A stretch of DNA of 29,047 bases from a virus, in the IMG/VR virus record IMGVR_UViG_3300025598_000126, positions 1-29,047 of that record; one strand, 5' to 3'. The notes under the pieces were generated by a model. The model saw nothing but the letters and a program-made list of their open reading frames with translations. It ran no database searches and was not told the DNA's origin. Shown here piece by piece: positions 3,632 through 28,153 of this stretch. The translations under genes were made by a program, and so were the position numbers. How positions within the stretch are numbered: the stretch's first letter is position 1; each line of letters begins with the position of its first letter.

Positions 3632-4075
3632 TTAATCTACAAACGCTTTCATTTTCTGCGCATATTCAAAATTCTTAATGCGAGAAATGATTTCACGAGC
3701 CTGTAATGTAATAAACACTACCGGAGCACCTTCATCACCTGCGTCAACTACAAAGCGATCACCACCATATTTGATAGTTCTCACTAAGTCGCCTTCTTTA
3801 CACCATGGGCCTTCAGGCCATGATTCAAGTGTAAATGGATCCTTGTATGCCAAAGGTCCAACTTGGATAACTTTAGCTACAGTTTCGTTAAACTTAATCG
3901 TTTGTCTTGTTTCGTCTACCAAAATAATACCACCCTTGCTTGTTACCTTTTCTCTTCTTAATTGAACGAGTACTCGGTCACCTGCAACTTCAATACCTGG
4001 GTCTATTACTGGAAAACATTCTATTTCAGAGCGTAAATCTGGCTCTGACTTTGCTACAACGTCAAATGCTGCCAT
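3632..4075 (-). CDS. GroES-like co-chaperonin (Cpn10 family)
   Basis: This 147-residue protein has the Cpn10 barrel signature: VAGDRVLVQLRREKVTSKGG near residues 31-50 followed by GIILVDETRQ, then VAKVIQVGP and, after an insertion, KEGDLVRTIKYGG. GroES proteins cap the GroEL chamber in the cytoplasm. Phage versions such as T4 gp31 let host GroEL fold the phage coat protein. The segment corresponding to the mobile loop, around TSKGGIILVDETRQT, contains the hydrophobic patch expected for GroEL contact. It is longer than the usual 95-100 residues, with extra segments at both ends. It lies between portal-side and scaffold genes, which supports a role in capsid folding. A strong AAGGAGG precedes the ATG. 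Confidence 0.82.
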   Translation of the reverse strand: MAAFDVVAKSEPDLRSEIECFPVIDPGIEVAGDRVLVQLRREKVTSKGGIILVDETRQTIKFNETVAKVIQVGPLAYKDPFTLESWPEGPWCKEGDLVRTIKYGGDRFVVDAGDEGAPVVFITLQAREIISRIKNFEYAQKMKAFVD

Positions 4076-7774: not shown

Positions 7775-7805
7775 TACTAATGCATATCTTTTTAACTATC
7801 CGCCC
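7775..7805 (-). promoter_or_regulatory. Phage promoter motif TGCATTAGTA with GGGCGGAT box
   Basis: The motif TGCATTAGTA lies at 7784-7775 (minus), with GGGCGGAT at 7805-7798, 21 nt upstream. The first G of the box is the last base of the terminase TAG stop. The next ATG is 5 nt downstream of the motif, so the predicted start site falls at or within two bases of that ATG. It opens the portal transcription unit. Confidence 0.78.
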
Positions 7806-9244
7806 TATACGGCGTACGGATTTTCAAATCTCTTATGCCCATCATCAGCATAAGAATAATCCCGCGGTGGAAGAGGATCTAATTGAATCCAGCCTGAATC
7901 ACGGAGCACTCGAAGGGATTGAGATAAGGAATCTACATAGTCATCATGACCGCCTGCTTCAGGGAAAGAACAAACCTGACGCAAAAAACGTTTAGCCCAG
8001 TCTGCAAATTCACCAGGACGTTCTGGATCTTCTGGAATAAATACTTTGCCTTTTGCAATTAATGGTGCTACAATGTTTAATCGCTGGACTTTATCAGCGC
8101 GACCTGGATTGTATCCACGAACTTCGATACCTGATCCTTGGAGCTCTTGAATAAGGGAGATACCTGCTGACTTATCTTCCATCAATACGAGATCGGCTTT
8201 CCTTCCTTTACCGAAATCGTTATCAGCTCCATAGACCATTTCTTTAAAGTCCTCAACGACTTTGCGTCGAAGTTCTGGATAGGCTAGGTGTCCATCCCAT
8301 GCATCCAATAATATAATGGACGTGCCTGCATCTTCGCGCTCAAACACTCCCCACACAGTACATGCCGTTGGGTCATTCATTGTTTTTTCTGATGTGGCTG
8401 GATCGTATGAAGCAATAACGTATTCTAAATCAGGTGTTGGTTTATCTGCTGGCCACATACGGAAATGTTTACGCTTGATGATACCTGCCTGTTCAGGATC
8501 TAAGATCTCACCATAAATTTCTTGACGACCAATATCTGTACCATCGTAAGTTTCTAACTGTTTAAAGAACGTAGCAGATAAATTATCTTTGTTATCGTAC
8601 GACGATGCATTTACCACATAAACATCGCCACCTACTTTGCCTTCATTAAGATCAACAATAAGTTCTTTAGGTTTTGGTGTTGTGGTAATGATTTGTTGCA
8701 CACGAGGAATGCGCGGATCTTTAAGACGTAATGTAAACTGAACACCATCATAGGCATCGTCTAAGTATTCAAATGCACACAACTCATCAAACCATGCACC
8801 ATGAAATTGTTTACCTCGGTAACGTTCAGGTTCTGATCCAGGGATACCTTGGATTAATGATCCGTTGGTTAGAGTAATTTCAAATAGAGACTTGTTGTAA
8901 TCTTTAATGAGAGATGGTGGTATGATATTGAGAAGACCAGAGTCTCCTTCAAAACAAGTGGCTCTGATATCATTTGATGTTGGTGCCGTGACTAACCAGC
9001 GGGTGTTGTCATACTTCCAAGCACGTATACCAATCCAATGGGATGCTGTATGTGTTTTACCTGAACCCCGGCCCGCTAACATGAGGAATGTATCAAACTC
9101 TCCGTCATCAGGTTCGCGTTGATGGGGGAGTGCCTGTAGTGACCATTTGATTTGCCAGATAGCAGCATCAAGTTGGTTCTTTGGCCAGTGTCGGTTTTTA
9201 TTTGCAAAATCTGCTAAGATTTTTTCTTGCTTAAGTGTTAACAT
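7805..9244 (-). CDS. terL: Terminase large subunit (packaging ATPase and nuclease)
   Basis: The 479-residue motor cuts phage DNA and drives it into the prohead at the portal. The ATPase domain has Walker A AGRGSGKT (residues 57-64), Walker B WFDE (151-154) and a coupling motif ITTTPKP (186-192). The C-terminal RNase H-like nuclease shows SYDPATSE (acidic D281), LVLMEDKSAG (E356, D357) and GGHDDYVDSL (D434, D435, D438). The length is normal for the family. No intein interrupts the ATPase. The ATG overlaps the stop of the Hint-like gene (ATGTTAA), so the two are translationally coupled. The candidate small subunit is far away, at 25126-25509 on the other strand. Confidence 0.93.
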   Translation of the reverse strand: MLTLKQEKILADFANKNRHWPKNQLDAAIWQIKWSLQALPHQREPDDGEFDTFLMLAGRGSGKTHTASHWIGIRAWKYDNTRWLVTAPTSNDIRATCFEGDSGLLNIIPPSLIKDYNKSLFEITLTNGSLIQGIPGSEPERYRGKQFHGAWFDELCAFEYLDDAYDGVQFTLRLKDPRIPRVQQIITTTPKPKELIVDLNEGKVGGDVYVVNASSYDNKDNLSATFFKQLETYDGTDIGRQEIYGEILDPEQAGIIKRKHFRMWPADKPTPDLEYVIASYDPATSEKTMNDPTACTVWGVFEREDAGTSIILLDAWDGHLAYPELRRKVVEDFKEMVYGADNDFGKGRKADLVLMEDKSAGISLIQELQGSGIEVRGYNPGRADKVQRLNIVAPLIAKGKVFIPEDPERPGEFADWAKRFLRQVCSFPEAGGHDDYVDSLSQSLRVLRDSGWIQLDPLPPRDYSYADDGHKRFENPYAV

Positions 9245-10230
9245 GTAGATATGAATCCTTCGCCAACAAGTATGCTGTTGTCTTTTCCCGTTGTTTCAAT
9301 GTGCACACACATTTGGGATTGAATGGGTGTGATTTGTTTTATGTATCTTCTACCAAGATAAACTTTTATTGGTGGGGAGTTTTGAATATCCATGATCTTA
9401 ATCCTAAACTTAAAATACAATGTGTATGTATTTCGTCCTGGATTAAAGTTAATGTTAGTCTTTGCTCCTAATGATTCAACTAAAGCTTGAATCTGCCTGA
9501 CTACGTTTAAGTTCCTTGATGAGAATCTAAACGTATCTGTTTTCTTATCATACTGATCTGACTTTGCATGCATGATACCAGTCAATAATTCGATTCGTTC
9601 TTCCACAGAAGCAAACAAATAGTTTGCTGGTATGCGAGAAGGAATGTTGGGTGCCAATTGTAAATGGATCGCTGGTTCTGTTTTAAAGACCCGTTTGCCA
9701 TTTTTTCTTTTAGGCCCTTCAATAATTTTATATCCATGGCTTCTAAACTTTTCATAGATGAAATCTTGGTAGCCTGGAATGGTAACTAAGTTATACTTTG
9801 AGTTTTTATTATAAAGCCAGAACCCAAAAAGAAATGGCGGTATACTTAAAGCTTGGTGAGGAAACTCAATCGGCTTTGTGGTTGGGATCGAATACTTTGT
9901 TCGACCACGTTTATCTTTTAAAGATTCATTCAGGATGTTAGATAGTTTAGTAAACTTTAACTTCCTCATAAACGGCCTGACGTTTTTATAAGCGTCTAAC
10001 TGTTTCCTATGATTTCTGTCTTGGATTAAGAAACCAAGATTAACATCTCCCTCTATGGTAAGATGATCATCAAAAGTTACTTCATAACATTTGTCAGAAA
10101 AATAATGCTGGACCAATTTAACCTGAACGATCTTGCCATTTTGGTTAAATACATAGTCTCCTATTTTTAATTTGTCTGCTCGCTTCCAATAGTCAAGCGT
10201 TAATACTTTTTGAATTGCCGTTATGGCCAT
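9238..10230 (-). CDS. Free-standing intein-like (Hint) protein with degenerate LAGLIDADG domain
   Basis: The 330-residue protein reads like an intein without exteins. Residues 10-72 match the N-terminal Hint block (TLDYWKRADKLKIGDYVFN, then CYEVTFDD and GDVNLGF). The middle resembles a LAGLIDADG endonuclease, but both catalytic motifs are decayed: PPFLFGFWLYNK (131-142) and ERIELLTGIMHAKSD (211-225), where an intact enzyme has an acidic residue after LLGLWLGDG or LLRGLMDTDG. The C-terminus (CVHIETTGKDNS, LVGEGFISTC) resembles the final intein block but ends ST-C where an active intein has His-Asn then Cys, Ser or Thr. It overlaps the terminase start. Splicing and DNA cutting are therefore unlikely; a domesticated role near packaging is a guess. 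Confidence 0.75.
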   Translation of the reverse strand: MAITAIQKVLTLDYWKRADKLKIGDYVFNQNGKIVQVKLVQHYFSDKCYEVTFDDHLTIEGDVNLGFLIQDRNHRKQLDAYKNVRPFMRKLKFTKLSNILNESLKDKRGRTKYSIPTTKPIEFPHQALSIPPFLFGFWLYNKNSKYNLVTIPGYQDFIYEKFRSHGYKIIEGPKRKNGKRVFKTEPAIHLQLAPNIPSRIPANYLFASVEERIELLTGIMHAKSDQYDKKTDTFRFSSRNLNVVRQIQALVESLGAKTNINFNPGRNTYTLYFKFRIKIMDIQNSPPIKVYLGRRYIKQITPIQSQMCVHIETTGKDNSILVGEGFISTC

Positions 10231-10250: not shown

Positions 10251-10279
10251 AAAAAAGAAAGGGACGTTTTAAGCCCCTT
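10251..10279 (-). terminator. Rho-independent terminator downstream of pqqA
   Basis: On the minus strand AAGGGGC pairs with GTCCCTT (one G-U pair) around a 7-base loop and is followed by TCTTTTTT. It lies 26 nt past the pqqA stop and before the Hint and terminase genes. No promoter motif follows it, so those genes would depend on read-through. Confidence 0.8.
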
Positions 10280-10304
10280 CCAAAAAGTTATACAAAAATA
10301 TAAC

Positions 10305-10379
10305 TTATTTGTTCATCACGTACATAGTTACTTCAAAGCCAAAACGCATTTCTGTAGCTGCTGGTTTAGTCCAAGCCAT
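10305..10379 (-). CDS. pqqA: PqqA, coenzyme PQQ precursor peptide
   Basis: This 24-residue peptide starts MAWTKPA and ends GFEVTMYVMNK, the layout of PqqA proteins (W-T/K-K-P-A, then L/M-R-x-G-x-E-V-T-x-Y). Glu16 and Tyr20 have the E-x3-Y spacing. In known PqqA peptides these residues are cross-linked by the radical SAM enzyme PqqE with the chaperone PqqD, and then excised to build PQQ, the cofactor of methanol and glucose dehydrogenases. No other pqq gene is in the window, so the host must supply the rest. AAGGAG stands 7 nt before the ATG. Two tandem phage promoter motifs precede it and a terminator follows, giving a short monocistronic message. The gene was too short for a normal ORF search. 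Confidence 0.9.
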   Translation of the reverse strand: MAWTKPAATEMRFGFEVTMYVMNK

Positions 10380-10425
10380 GTTGTTCTCCTTTTTAGATCA
10401 AATGTACTCGATATGAGCACATCTT

Positions 10426-10435
10426 TACTAATGCA
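10426..10435 (-). promoter_or_regulatory. Proximal phage promoter motif of pqqA
   Basis: TGCATTAGTA reads on the minus strand. Transcription would begin near 10419. Exactly there a GTGCTC / GAGTAC hairpin (10420-10404, one G-U pair) would form the 5' end of the pqqA message. The AAGGAG follows it. No GGGCG box is present 21 nt upstream. Confidence 0.72.
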
Positions 10436-10483: not shown

Positions 10484-10493
10484 TACTAATGCA
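10484..10493 (-). promoter_or_regulatory. Distal phage promoter motif of pqqA, outward end of repeat A
   Basis: AAATTTGCATTAGTA reads on the minus strand, 51 nt outside the repeat core at 10544. The same distance separates the other repeat from its outward motif at 17834. It is tandem with the motif at 10426-10435. Confidence 0.72.
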
Positions 10494-10815
10494 AATTTGC
10501 GCAAATTATTGCCAAAAATTTGCAGTATTAACAAAAAAGTATATGTAAGTCATTGATTTATAACAGTTTGTCATACTTCTTTTTATGTAAGTCATTGAAT
10601 ATAAAGGATTGTTACAATTTGTAACAATTGTGTGTCACACTTTACCCCTCTGTAACCCATTGATTAATAACACATTGTCACACTTGCCACACTTCTTTGT
10701 CTATTTTTCTATTTTAAAAAATAAAAAATAAAAATTAGGGTGGGGGGTAATATGCGTTTTAAGTGTGACAAGTGTGACAAGTGTGACAACTTGTTTAAAA
10801 TCAATAACTTACAAA
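10484..10815. repeat. Inverted repeat A: iteron-bearing regulatory or origin region
   Basis: The core 10544-10815 (272 bp) is a diverged inverted copy of 17512-17783, also 272 bp. It holds seven 9-bp iterons: GTCACACTT-type at 10570, 10634, 10677 and 10686 (two with one mismatch) and AAGTGTGAC at 10761, 10770 and 10779. It also has a palindrome with ATTGTTACA arms (10608-10628), repeated TGTAAGTCATTGATT-like words, and an A/T-only centre near 10705-10735. Direct and inverted iterons face each other across that centre, as in replication origins or divergent operators. No gene lies in it. Confidence 0.8.
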
Positions 10816-11451
10816 GGTCAAAATTGCCAGATTTTTAAAAAAAATTTTTTAGGAATCGACTTTTTTAAAAATTGACGCGATTTATAAAAACTTGCGGTCT
10901 GTGGGGCCCCCGCCGCCCCCCTCAGGTAGGGGACCCAAATTGGGGTATCGCCTCGATCGAAATACCCCTACTGCAAGGAGGGTTATTTGATTCGCTAGTC
11001 TAGCAAGGGTTGCAAGGCATCGTGCCTCGCCTCGCCTTGCTATGCCAGCGAGGCGCGATGCTCGCTCGATCGCATCGGTGCGAGGCATGGTGCTCACTCA
11101 ATCGCGAGGCATCGAGGCAAGGTGCGAGCAAGGGGCGCGCATCATCAAGGCATCGAGGCAAGGTGGCAAGGTGCGAGCGAGGCAAGGTGGCAAGGTGCGA
11201 GGCGTGATGATCGAGCATCGAGGCATCGTGCGACGCGATCGAGCCGATCGGGCGAGGCATCGTGCGTGATCGATGCGCACGCGAGGGCTCGGGGGTGGCG
11301 TGACCATGATATGTAAAACTTATCAGAGGGGCGCGCCTGATATGAAATGACAATCAAAAAGAATCGAGATATATATAGTATTTGAAAATGATCTCGGGTT
11401 ATAATCGGGCGTGCGCAATCTCGCGCATATTTAAAAGAAAGGTTATTGATT
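10816..11451. other. GC-rich, repeat-rich noncoding segment
   Basis: About 10890-11320 is built from few words (GCGAG, GGCATCG, AAGGTG, CGATCG). A 14-bp hairpin joins 11017-11030 to 11048-11061 with one G-U pair. A 23-bp direct repeat lies at 11155-11177 and 11179-11201, beginning GAGGCAAGGTGGCAAGG. GGGGTAT and ATACCCC pair around 10945-10975. Open frames exist on both strands but are low-complexity products of the repeats. I see no tRNA and no convincing gene. The last 100 bases are AT-richer and carry the leader of the next gene. Confidence 0.6.
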
Positions 11452-13104: not shown

Positions 13105-13396
13105 ATATCCGATCGGTGTTTTATTGCCCTATCAAAATCATTTTAATAAGCCTCTCGAGAGCGATATTAAATCGGGCGAGATTATGAAATTGATCGAGCA
13201 TCTCGATTTAAGAAAATGCAATTATGACGGGCTCTATTATCCACGCGCATATATGATTCTTACAAGTTTCGGATTGATTGCCGAGCAATACGCAATTAAG
13301 ATCGATGAAAGCGAGTATTCGTGCATGGATAATGAGTATCTCGGATTTATTTTAAATCCAATTTTTAGAAAAGAAAGCGAGGCAGTAAATGGATAG
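13097..13396 (+). CDS. Hypothetical protein
   Basis: This 99-residue protein starts MRKYPIGVLLPYQNHF, with its ATG overlapping the previous stop (ATGCGTAA). A run of hydrophobic and aromatic residues (DGLYYPRAYMILTSFGLIAEQYAI) sits in the middle, too polar for a clear membrane segment. It shares the CGA/GATC-rich composition of its neighbours and overlaps the next gene by 8 nt, so the three form one operon. No family recognised. Confidence 0.65.
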   Translation: MRKYPIGVLLPYQNHFNKPLESDIKSGEIMKLIEHLDLRKCNYDGLYYPRAYMILTSFGLIAEQYAIKIDESEYSCMDNEYLGFILNPIFRKESEAVNG

Positions 13397-14489
13397 ATTA
13401 TTAAACATTTTGTCATACAGGCGCGAGCACAATTCGATCGGCGAGTTGTCATTCGCTTTAAAATACTTGAGCCAATTCGAGCCGATGCACAATCTCGACG
13501 GCGATGTCATCGCGTATCGATTCGATAATACGCACCCCGAGGATAAATCGCGCGTGCTCTTTTCGTGCCACATCGACACGATGCACCGATCGAATCCCGA
13601 TCGCGCATTTCAAGAGGTGTATCTCGATTCATTCTCGAATCAAGTATTCATTGATTCAAGCGATGATTGCCTCGGTGCCGATGATGGCGCAGGCGTCTTT
13701 TTATTGCTCGAGATGATCGATCGAGGCGTGCATGGTGCCTTTATATTTCATCGAGGCGAGGAGAAAGGGGGCATCGGCTCGCGTGCCATGGTTGAGTATC
13801 ATTCCGATTGGTTATCTACTTTCACCCATGCGATAGCTTTCGATCGTCGAGGCACGCAATCAATCATTACGCATCAAGGCACGTGTCGAGGCGCATCGGA
13901 TACGTGCGCGCAATTCATCATTGACACGATCGGCATGAATCACGTGCTCGATGATACGGGCACTTATACTGACACGCGCGAATATTTCGGGCTTATTCCC
14001 GAATGTTTTAATTTCTCGATCGGGTACGATCACGAGCATTCATCGCGTGAAATACTCGACGTCGATTATTTGATGCGATTACGCGATCGCATTACATCGA
14101 TCGAATGGGGCGCGCTTGAATTGCCGATCGATCGCGAGCCAAAATATGCCGATTACGATGACAAGTATTCTAGCTATTATTCGGGCGCATATTATTCGAT
14201 CTATGACAATCCCGATTTAGATGAGGTGCTATACATGGATAAACGCGAGCTCGCTCGATTCATTAAGAAAAGCAAGCCCGAAAAAATCGCCGATATTATG
14301 AGCGATCTTATTAATCATGTATTCGAGCTCGACGATTATATTGCGCAAGGCAATTCACAATACGCGCGCGACGATTACGCCGATTATTATTCTTTTAATG
14401 ATTCGCGCATCGATGAGCGCGCGTCACTATTGAAAGCACCAATCGAAAATACTCTCGAGCGCGATCTCGAAACCGATTATTCGGGGTGA
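13389..14489 (+). CDS. Di-zinc peptidase of the M20/M28-like clan
   Basis: The 366-residue protein has the metal-ligand series of co-catalytic zinc exopeptidases in order. These are FSCHIDTMH (H61, D63), LGADDGAG (D98, bridging metal), HRGEEKGGIGS (E124 catalytic, E125 ligand), AFDRRGT (D152) and IGYDHEHSSRE (H216 or H218). Such enzymes remove amino acids from peptides or deacylate small substrates in the cytoplasm. The last 120 residues are acidic and Tyr-rich (YDDKYSSYYSGAYYS) and look unlike the family, so they may be a phage-specific extension. It closes a three-gene operon before a strong terminator and shares that operon's odd base composition. The substrate cannot be told; cell-wall peptides or peptide nutrient recovery are possible. 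Confidence 0.8.
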   Translation: MDRLLNILSYRREHNSIGELSFALKYLSQFEPMHNLDGDVIAYRFDNTHPEDKSRVLFSCHIDTMHRSNPDRAFQEVYLDSFSNQVFIDSSDDCLGADDGAGVFLLLEMIDRGVHGAFIFHRGEEKGGIGSRAMVEYHSDWLSTFTHAIAFDRRGTQSIITHQGTCRGASDTCAQFIIDTIGMNHVLDDTGTYTDTREYFGLIPECFNFSIGYDHEHSSREILDVDYLMRLRDRITSIEWGALELPIDREPKYADYDDKYSSYYSGAYYSIYDNPDLDEVLYMDKRELARFIKKSKPEKIADIMSDLINHVFELDDYIAQGNSQYARDDYADYYSFNDSRIDERASLLKAPIENTLERDLETDYSG

Positions 14490-16402: not shown

Positions 16403-16584
16403 TGAAACAACCCGCATACGAACTACGAGATGAAACCGGCGAAGCAATTCGTCGGTTTTATTCTATGGAGTTTGCAGAAAAGTTTTTATGTCAAGGATAC
16501 ACCATCACCAAATTAAATCTTCCTAAACCACCACACCCATTTCAGCAATTACTTTCACTCAACTTAGGAGATCCCCCATTTTGA
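16402..16584 (+). CDS. Small hypothetical protein
   Basis: This 60-residue protein starts at an ATG that overlaps the previous stop (TAATG) and ends in a TGA that overlaps the TTG start of the sigma gene. Sequence features are an RDETGEAIRRFYSMEFAEKF segment and a Pro/Leu-rich end (LPKPPHPFQQLLSL). Function unknown; it is part of a tightly coupled translational chain. Confidence 0.6.
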   Translation: MKQPAYELRDETGEAIRRFYSMEFAEKFLCQGYTITKLNLPKPPHPFQQLLSLNLGDPPF

Positions 16585-17162
16585 CAGAAGATTATCAACC
16601 CAATGATATACTCACCGACTACTTACAATCGCTCTATGGGGTAGACATCTTACCTACGGAAGAAGAGCACCGCCTTGCTTATCGTATTGCAGAGGGTGAC
16701 CAAAAAGCCCTGGACAAATTGATTAAGCACAATTTGAGATTTGTCGTTTACATCGTACGCAAAATGACAGCGTGGAAATATAGTCGCATGCCACTTGAAG
16801 ATCTACTTGCCATGGGTAATGAACAACTCACTATTGCAGCACGTCGGTGGACACCTACAAACAACGCACGCTTTGCAACCTATGCCAGATCATTTATTGA
16901 AAAAGGTGTTCGTCGAGAGCTTGACAATACGGCTAACCTCATACGACTGCCCGTAAATATTATGGAAGCAGTCAAGAAAATGAATTATAATGAACGTGCT
17001 TTATCACAAGTTTTAGGTCGCAAACCAAAAATAAGTGAAGTAGCCACAATGATGGGTGTCGATGAGGAAAGAGTGAGACTGCTTCAATCTTATCTCACAC
17101 GTGAACCCGTATCACTCGAACATTTAAATGAAGAAAGATTTTTGGAGGAACAAGATGACTAA
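16581..17162 (+). CDS. RNA polymerase sigma factor, regions 1.2-3 only
   Basis: The 193-residue protein has region 1.2 (LPTEEEHRLAYRIAEGDQKA), region 2.1 (KLIKHNLRFVVYIVRKM), region 2.2-2.4 (MPLEDLLAMGNEQLTIAARR, then ARFATYARSFIEKGVRRELD) and region 3 (ERALSQVLGRKPKISEVATM). It stops after VSLEHLNEERFLEEQDD, where region 3.2 and the -35-binding region 4 would follow. The -10-reading helix differs from host sigma70, so an unusual -10 sequence is expected. The start is a TTG at 16581 with TAGGAG about 10 nt upstream. Sigma factors of this type redirect host RNA polymerase to phage promoters. The likely target is TGCATTAGTA (inference). Confidence 0.88.
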   Translation: MTEDYQPNDILTDYLQSLYGVDILPTEEEHRLAYRIAEGDQKALDKLIKHNLRFVVYIVRKMTAWKYSRMPLEDLLAMGNEQLTIAARRWTPTNNARFATYARSFIEKGVRRELDNTANLIRLPVNIMEAVKKMNYNERALSQVLGRKPKISEVATMMGVDEERVRLLQSYLTREPVSLEHLNEERFLEEQDD

Positions 17163-27571: not shown

Positions 27572-27634
27572 GTTTTTTACGGGTAGACGAATCAGCCCCG
27601 ATTGAAGTTTGATTCTAACGTTAAGGAGTAATAT

Positions 27635-28153
27635 ATGGCAGCAACTAATAAAATTAAAATTGTAACTGGTAAAGTACGTTTCTCATATGCGCATGTGTTT
27701 CAACCACAAGCTGCTGTTGAAGGCGGTACACCAAAGTATTCAGTATCAATTATCATTCCAAAATCTGATACTGAAACAGTTGCTAAGTTTCAAAAAGCTT
27801 TCGAAGATGCGGCAAATACAAACGCAGCTTTCTTTGGTGGCGCAGTACCAAAAGGTTTAAAAGGTGGTTTACGTGATGGTGACGCAGAGAAGGATGATCC
27901 GGCTTATGCTAATTCATACTTTGTAAATGCTAACTCAGCTAATAAACCAGGTGTTGTAGATGCAGATATGAATGCGATCATTGATCCATCAGAATTCTAT
28001 AGCGGTTGCTATGGTCGTGCATCTGTAACACTCTATCCATACAATGCCTCAGGTTCTAAAGGTATTGCGGTTGGATTAAACAATGTTCAAAAAACAGAAG
28101 ACGGTGAAAAACTTGGTGGTGGTACATCCGCCGCTGCAGACTTCGCAGTTTAA
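27635..28153 (+). CDS. DUF2815 single-strand DNA-binding-like protein
   Basis: The 172-residue protein starts with KIVTGKVRFSYAHVFQPQAA and PKYSVSIIIPKSDTETVAKF, then contains GLRDGDAEKDDPAYANSYFV and the end VGLNNVQKTEDGEKLGGG. This is the DUF2815 layout, an OB-fold family that acts as the phage single-strand DNA-binding protein in several systems. It is commonly paired with DUF2800, as here. A strong AAGGAG stands before the ATG. The C-terminal tail is Ala- and Gly-rich. Confidence 0.9.
   Translation: MAATNKIKIVTGKVRFSYAHVFQPQAAVEGGTPKYSVSIIIPKSDTETVAKFQKAFEDAANTNAAFFGGAVPKGLKGGLRDGDAEKDDPAYANSYFVNANSANKPGVVDADMNAIIDPSEFYSGCYGRASVTLYPYNASGSKGIAVGLNNVQKTEDGEKLGGGTSAAADFAV

Follow-up and report, generated by a model that had tools for sequence, protein, structure and literature searches.

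The question raised by this locus is whether a very short phage gene encodes a working PqqA, the peptide from which PQQ is made, and what a phage would do with it. The initial annotation had placed a 24-residue PqqA-type ORF at positions 10305-10379 of the window, that is, of the whole 29,047-nt stretch of DNA that was analysed. These coordinates are exact but the strand had been left unsaid: the gene lies on the minus strand, where 10379..10305 comprises 24 codons and a stop with the product MAWTKPAATEMRFGFEVTMYVMNK, and the plus strand over the same positions translates as LFVHHVH.... In a profile search, which had been named as a possible refutation, the peptide matched Pfam PqqA (PF08042) at 42.8 bits (cut-off 21.1, E 4.9e-11) and the NCBIfam equivalog TIGR02107 at 40.2 bits (cut-off 20, E 2e-10), both scores being about twice their cut-offs, and the assignment is thereby borne out. 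Among the profile families PqqA was the only match with no second family, PHROGs contained no family for the 24-residue peptide and Rfam gave no match at this place. The Glu and Tyr of PqqA are the source of the PQQ atoms and are converted by PqqE/PqqD and then PqqB/PqqC; the corresponding ExxxY arrangement, Glu and Tyr with three residues between them, is found in the window peptide as E16 and Y20. Furthermore, a ribosome-binding site AAGGAG (10386..10391, minus strand) stands 6 nt before the ATG, in a layout common to the relatives. The ORF is far from chance, because the peptide is found at the same place in 18 relatives chosen by their terminase and recurs in at least 120 viral contigs.

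The window belongs to a true phage genome, with terL, portal, capsid and primase present, and pqqA is in it the host-derived metabolic gene that characterises an auxiliary metabolic gene (AMG). The gene had been described as part of a packaging operon, which is correct in so far as it heads the leftward packaging and structural arm, but it has its own upstream promoter-like motif and two hairpins after it, the second of which is terminator-like. The terminase large subunit gene terL (7805..9244, minus strand) served as anchor for the family tree. Between it and pqqA, outside the cassette described below, lies a 330-aa intein-like ORF, putatively of Hint type (9238..10230, minus strand). It overlaps terL at the start of that gene, and in PHROGs it hits long terminase profiles in their N-terminal region. 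Nearly every terL relative with sufficient sequence retains this ORF, which evolves much faster than terL (43-61% identity in most relatives versus 85-93%); it is possibly a free-standing intein relic or a split intein beside terL.

Several other features of the window were recorded. Iteron-like copies of TGTCACACTT / AAGTGTGACAA in inverted arrangement occupy a divergent intergenic region at 10569-10790, a candidate replication origin, and imperfect repeats of 19-29 nt (CGAGGCAAGGTGCGA) form a G+C-rich array at 11009-11267 of this A+T-rich phage. A DUF2815 RNA (Rfam RF03084, 57.8 bits) is found at 27580-27637 on the plus strand, directly before a 172-aa ORF at 27635, and the window also carries a Cpn10 (GroES-type) co-chaperonin gene (3632-4075, minus strand) and a Peptidase M28 gene (13389-14489, plus strand).

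The search of other phage contigs suggested by the initial annotation was productive: a codon-pattern scan of IMG/VR, with a pattern that itself imposes E16 and Y20, found pqqA in at least 120 contigs. The carriers are diverse. They show portal, TerL, helicase and DNA polymerase, and for 99 of these at least 120 contigs the longest proteins were assigned to portal, terminase, primase/helicase, DNA polymerase and recombinase families. Among the contigs listed, 107 distinct DNAs encode 45 peptides, pN/pS is 0.18 overall and 0.27 at codons unconstrained by the search pattern, and R12 and F15 are invariant even though the pattern did not impose them. Judged by these substitution patterns, phage pqqA is under strong purifying selection. 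Because E16 and Y20 were built into that first pattern, their constancy was tested with two opposite scans and a terminase-anchored set. The IMG/VR scan for a codon 16 not starting with G and that for a codon 20 not starting with T each returned zero copies. The independent set consisted of 80 IMG/VR contigs picked by the window's terminase and not by PqqA, and in 18 of them pqqA has the position that it has in the window, immediately ahead of the terL genes; all 18 keep the E and the Y, while K5 is replaced by T or S and V17 by I in some. The conservation of E16 and Y20 expected in homologous phage loci is thus found as invariance in both kinds of data. On the terminase tree pqqA is present in 14/14 informative members of the window's clade and lacking in 49 other relatives with sufficient upstream sequence, a distribution that requires at least 5 gains or losses. 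The relatives without pqqA have a G+C of 0.457 versus 0.401, perhaps reflecting different hosts.

By its sequence layout, pqqA looks like a self-contained cassette, new here, lying between the packaging-operon promoter and terL, with the order promoter-like motif, stem-loop, ribosome site, 24 codons, hairpin and terminator. The putative promoter, of extended -10 type, is the TGCATTAGTA motif at 10426..10435 (minus strand; position -56), and a second copy lies at 10484..10493 (minus strand; -114). The motif occurs in nine exact copies in the window versus 0.06 expected; the nine sites span 1664-25569 upstream of genes in both arms, each on the transcribed strand, and some lie 10-40 nt before start codons. 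In the 80 terminase relatives, 63 copies are on the terminase strand and 0 on the other. The distal copy is also present in 38/48 pqqA-less relatives, in nearly all of them 280-289 nt ahead of the intein-like ORF, and given this shared position probably represents the old operon promoter. The proximal copy belongs to the pqqA loci, in most of which the stem-loop begins 5 nt after it. Ordinary sigma-70 promoters and terminators around pqqA showed no excess over shuffled sequence, and for this reason the promoter claim rests on the repeated TGCATTAGTA. The window encodes a 193-aa sigma-70-like protein (16581-17162, plus strand) in which regions 2 and 3 were matched and region 4 was not; this short protein is a candidate reader of TGCATTAGTA as an extended -10 promoter. 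Downstream, a 9-bp hairpin (10285..10306, minus strand) is located directly at the pqqA stop codon, followed by a terminator-like hairpin and TTTTTT (10257..10281, minus strand) conserved in relatives L269 and L273-L279.

Just upstream of the ribosome-binding site, a 10-bp stem-loop, AGATGTGCTC(atatc)GAGTACATTT, occupies 10400..10424 on the minus strand. From the spacing of the promoter motif, it would stand at the 5' end of the message, as transcription would be expected to start ~7 nt after the ATTAGT hexamer, where the conserved part of the stem begins. In the window's clade both arms of the stem vary at pairs 4, 5 and 6, but those arms were hand-picked and the unbiased evidence is the comparison across the whole class. 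Of 97 non-redundant phage pqqA loci, 42% have a strong stem whose end lies 14-27 nt ahead of the start codon, compared with 7% in shuffled sequence, 8.5% of 129 host pqqA and 8.4% of 249 other phage genes, these being the ones with intergenic upstream regions (Fisher p ~3e-12 versus other phage genes and ~3e-9 versus host pqqA, both indicative as the loci are partly kin). The stem sequences are mostly unrelated between phage pqqA loci. Moreover, in 24/41 loci versus 5 expected the stem follows a TATAAT-like box at a distance of 3-9 nt, which would again place it at the message 5' end. Such 5' hairpins can impede RppH and thereby stabilise some messages (PMC3997798).

Methylophilus, Methylotenera and Methylopumilus encode the PqqA MWTKPAATEMRFGFEVTMYVMNK, to which the window peptide is identical from W3 to K24. 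Given this identity, the window peptide is likely a substrate of PqqE/PqqD and then PqqB/PqqC. A methylotroph host, as initially proposed, is strongly indicated by the same identity to Methylophilaceae PqqA and by the presence of the gene in cultured Methylophilales phages; the window phage would infect freshwater Methylophilaceae. As also anticipated, the gene is solitary. The window record is a fragment, and in the 29 kb present none of pqqB/C/D/E was found, nor was any in the sequence stretches around any of 120 viral copies, while the same search detected them in about a third of 117 host stretches. The usual but non-defining linkage to pqqBCDE is therefore missing from the window, which does not bar membership of PqqA because orphan pqqA copies are normal in hosts. 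Eight methylotroph genomes, mostly of Methylophilaceae, have 2-12 pqqA each, and published genomes have 3-12 with typically a single pqqBCDE set (PMC4109929). In Methylovorus MP688, PqqA availability has been reported as rate-determining (Ge 2015, cited in PMC11317620). With many pqqA but typically one pqqBCDE in the hosts, and PqqA supply reported as rate-determining, a lone precursor gene is a sensible means of raising PQQ flux.

Other functions of a solitary pqqA were weighed against this. The orphan PqqA could have a second job, either lanthanide handling for XoxF-type methanol dehydrogenase or that of a regulatory peptide, rather than increasing PQQ; orphan pqqA responds to the form of lanthanide in M. 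extorquens, where a link to lanthanide uptake has been proposed (PMC11317620), and many orphan copies are kept by hosts. We consider this unlikely, as the invariant E16 and Y20 are precisely what PQQ synthesis needs and independent support for a second job is absent. More doubtful still is that the phage peptide acts as a decoy which occupies PqqE/PqqD, lowers host PQQ and shuts down methanol oxidation. A decoy would be solitary, as this gene is, and would need the leader residues that are kept, yet it would need neither of the PQQ-forming residues, which never change, and the peptide is identical to the host substrate. It is very improbable that the gene is a functionless passenger, either host DNA captured recently or an attachment site, for although its coding DNA differs by no more than 3 changes of 66 from some host copies, it is under strong purifying selection, its RBS, motif, stem-loop and terminator are conserved, for 112/125 phage copies the nearest of the copies compared is from another phage and not from a host, and none of the 14 informative members of the window's terL clade lacks it. 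The attachment site was rejected in its own right: copies vary at synonymous sites yet keep the peptide, the RBS and the start.

Feeding the host pathway, as the initial annotation had it, remains the best reading of a solitary gene under purifying selection in phages of hosts with many pqqA and typically one pqqBCDE. Hence, we think it probable that phage pqqA is a working copy of host PqqA, made from a short independent message and supplying substrate so that host enzymes make more PQQ. The phage would contribute only the consumed substrate; transcription would begin at the TGCATTAGTA motif, the stem-loop would protect the mRNA, and host PqqE/PqqD followed by PqqB/PqqC would turn the phage peptide into PQQ. 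A single host enzyme set would in this way yield more of the cofactor, and methanol dehydrogenase would stay charged while the cell becomes phage. Higher PQQ and methanol oxidation in infected cells would be the expected outcome. What the sequences support directly is the identity of the peptide, the selection on it, the invariance of E16 and Y20, the lack of nearby pqq genes and the recurrence in unrelated phages. Beside the suggested lanthanide function, two points count against this role. pqqA has been reported as dispensable for PQQ in Methylobacterium extorquens AM1, in work outside of which the orphan copies fall, and one extra pqqA beside the 2-12 of the host might matter little unless it is highly made. 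A broader proposal, which we put forward tentatively and would not yet favour, is that phages of methylotrophs have repeatedly built the same minimal cassette (promoter, 5'-terminal stem-loop, ribosome site, 23-25 codons, terminator), controlling the flux of a ribosomally made cofactor pathway through its consumed peptide; the stem-loop, unrelated in each lineage, would protect the tiny message and allow PqqA to be made in large amounts during infection.

A tblastn search of phage records with the peptide matched nine Methylophilales/Methylophilaceae records (Venkman, P19250A, MEP301, MEP401, MEP402 and four Melnitz), a count of matches and not a share of all such phages, as well as one spring-water phage genome. 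Matches to an 'Acinetobacter phage' were excluded: the record concerned (CAKLQF020000010.1, 'Acinetobacter phage MD-2021a') carries a whole bacterial pqqABCDE operon together with ppk and is probably bacterial sequence wrongly labelled as phage. As had been predicted, the gene is short enough to be overlooked: in five of the matched phage records pqqA is unannotated, in the OM43/LD28 isolates it is either without annotation or merely 'hypothetical', and the gene annotated at its place in Melnitz-2 and in the spring-water phage runs on the opposite strand. The published papers on Melnitz, MEP301, MEP401/402 and Venkman leave PqqA unmentioned. One earlier account of phage PqqA with a methylotroph host was found in the literature consulted, that of the Lake Baikal phage population VP_266 in 2020 (PMC7678222), and a 2026 reservoir study names pqqA among virus-encoded genes, with no detail in its main text. 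The window pqqA is thus not the first phage PqqA, and its occurrence is far wider than reported, annotation having missed a gene of only ~24 codons. Since the same overlooked gene is present in many unrelated viruses of methanol-eating bacteria, these viruses probably push the PQQ-precursor step of methanol metabolism routinely. This suggests that phages commonly control PQQ supply in methanol-oxidising bacteria, which are one sink of marine and freshwater methanol. Cultured pairs carry the gene (Venkman on strain H5P1, MEP301 on an OM43 host), so that phage reprogramming of methanol oxidation and PqqA limitation of PQQ are directly testable, and the stem-loop cassette indicates how a phage might strongly express a very short peptide.

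Among known systems, the peptides of Venkman, P19250A, MEP301, MEP401/402 and Melnitz are 75-95% identical to the window's over the matched part, but they belong to other phage lineages and other genome positions, and in Melnitz-2 the sole annotated gene at this place is the one on the opposite strand. VP_266 shares with the window a phage PqqA, an inferred Methylophilaceae host and the same proposed role; that phage is T4-like and also encodes a methanol dehydrogenase, whereas the window represents a different lineage with pqqA alone, and the portion of the account available describes no promoter, stem-loop or distribution (PMC7678222). Compared with the Methylophilaceae host gene (TIGR02107/PF08042, orphan copies included), the phage gene has the same W3-K24, RBS and downstream terminator hairpin, but it encodes an extra Ala2, has no pqqBCDE beside it and resides in a phage genome; the upstream stem-loop is a property of the phage copies as a class, host copies being without it. 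AMGs of phages, such as psbA, phoH and the like, are host-derived and prop up a host pathway during infection. Phage pqqA resembles them in being host-derived and in the support it would give to a host pathway, but it differs from the usual ones in providing a consumed peptide substrate rather than an enzyme, from 24 codons that fall below usual gene-caller limits.
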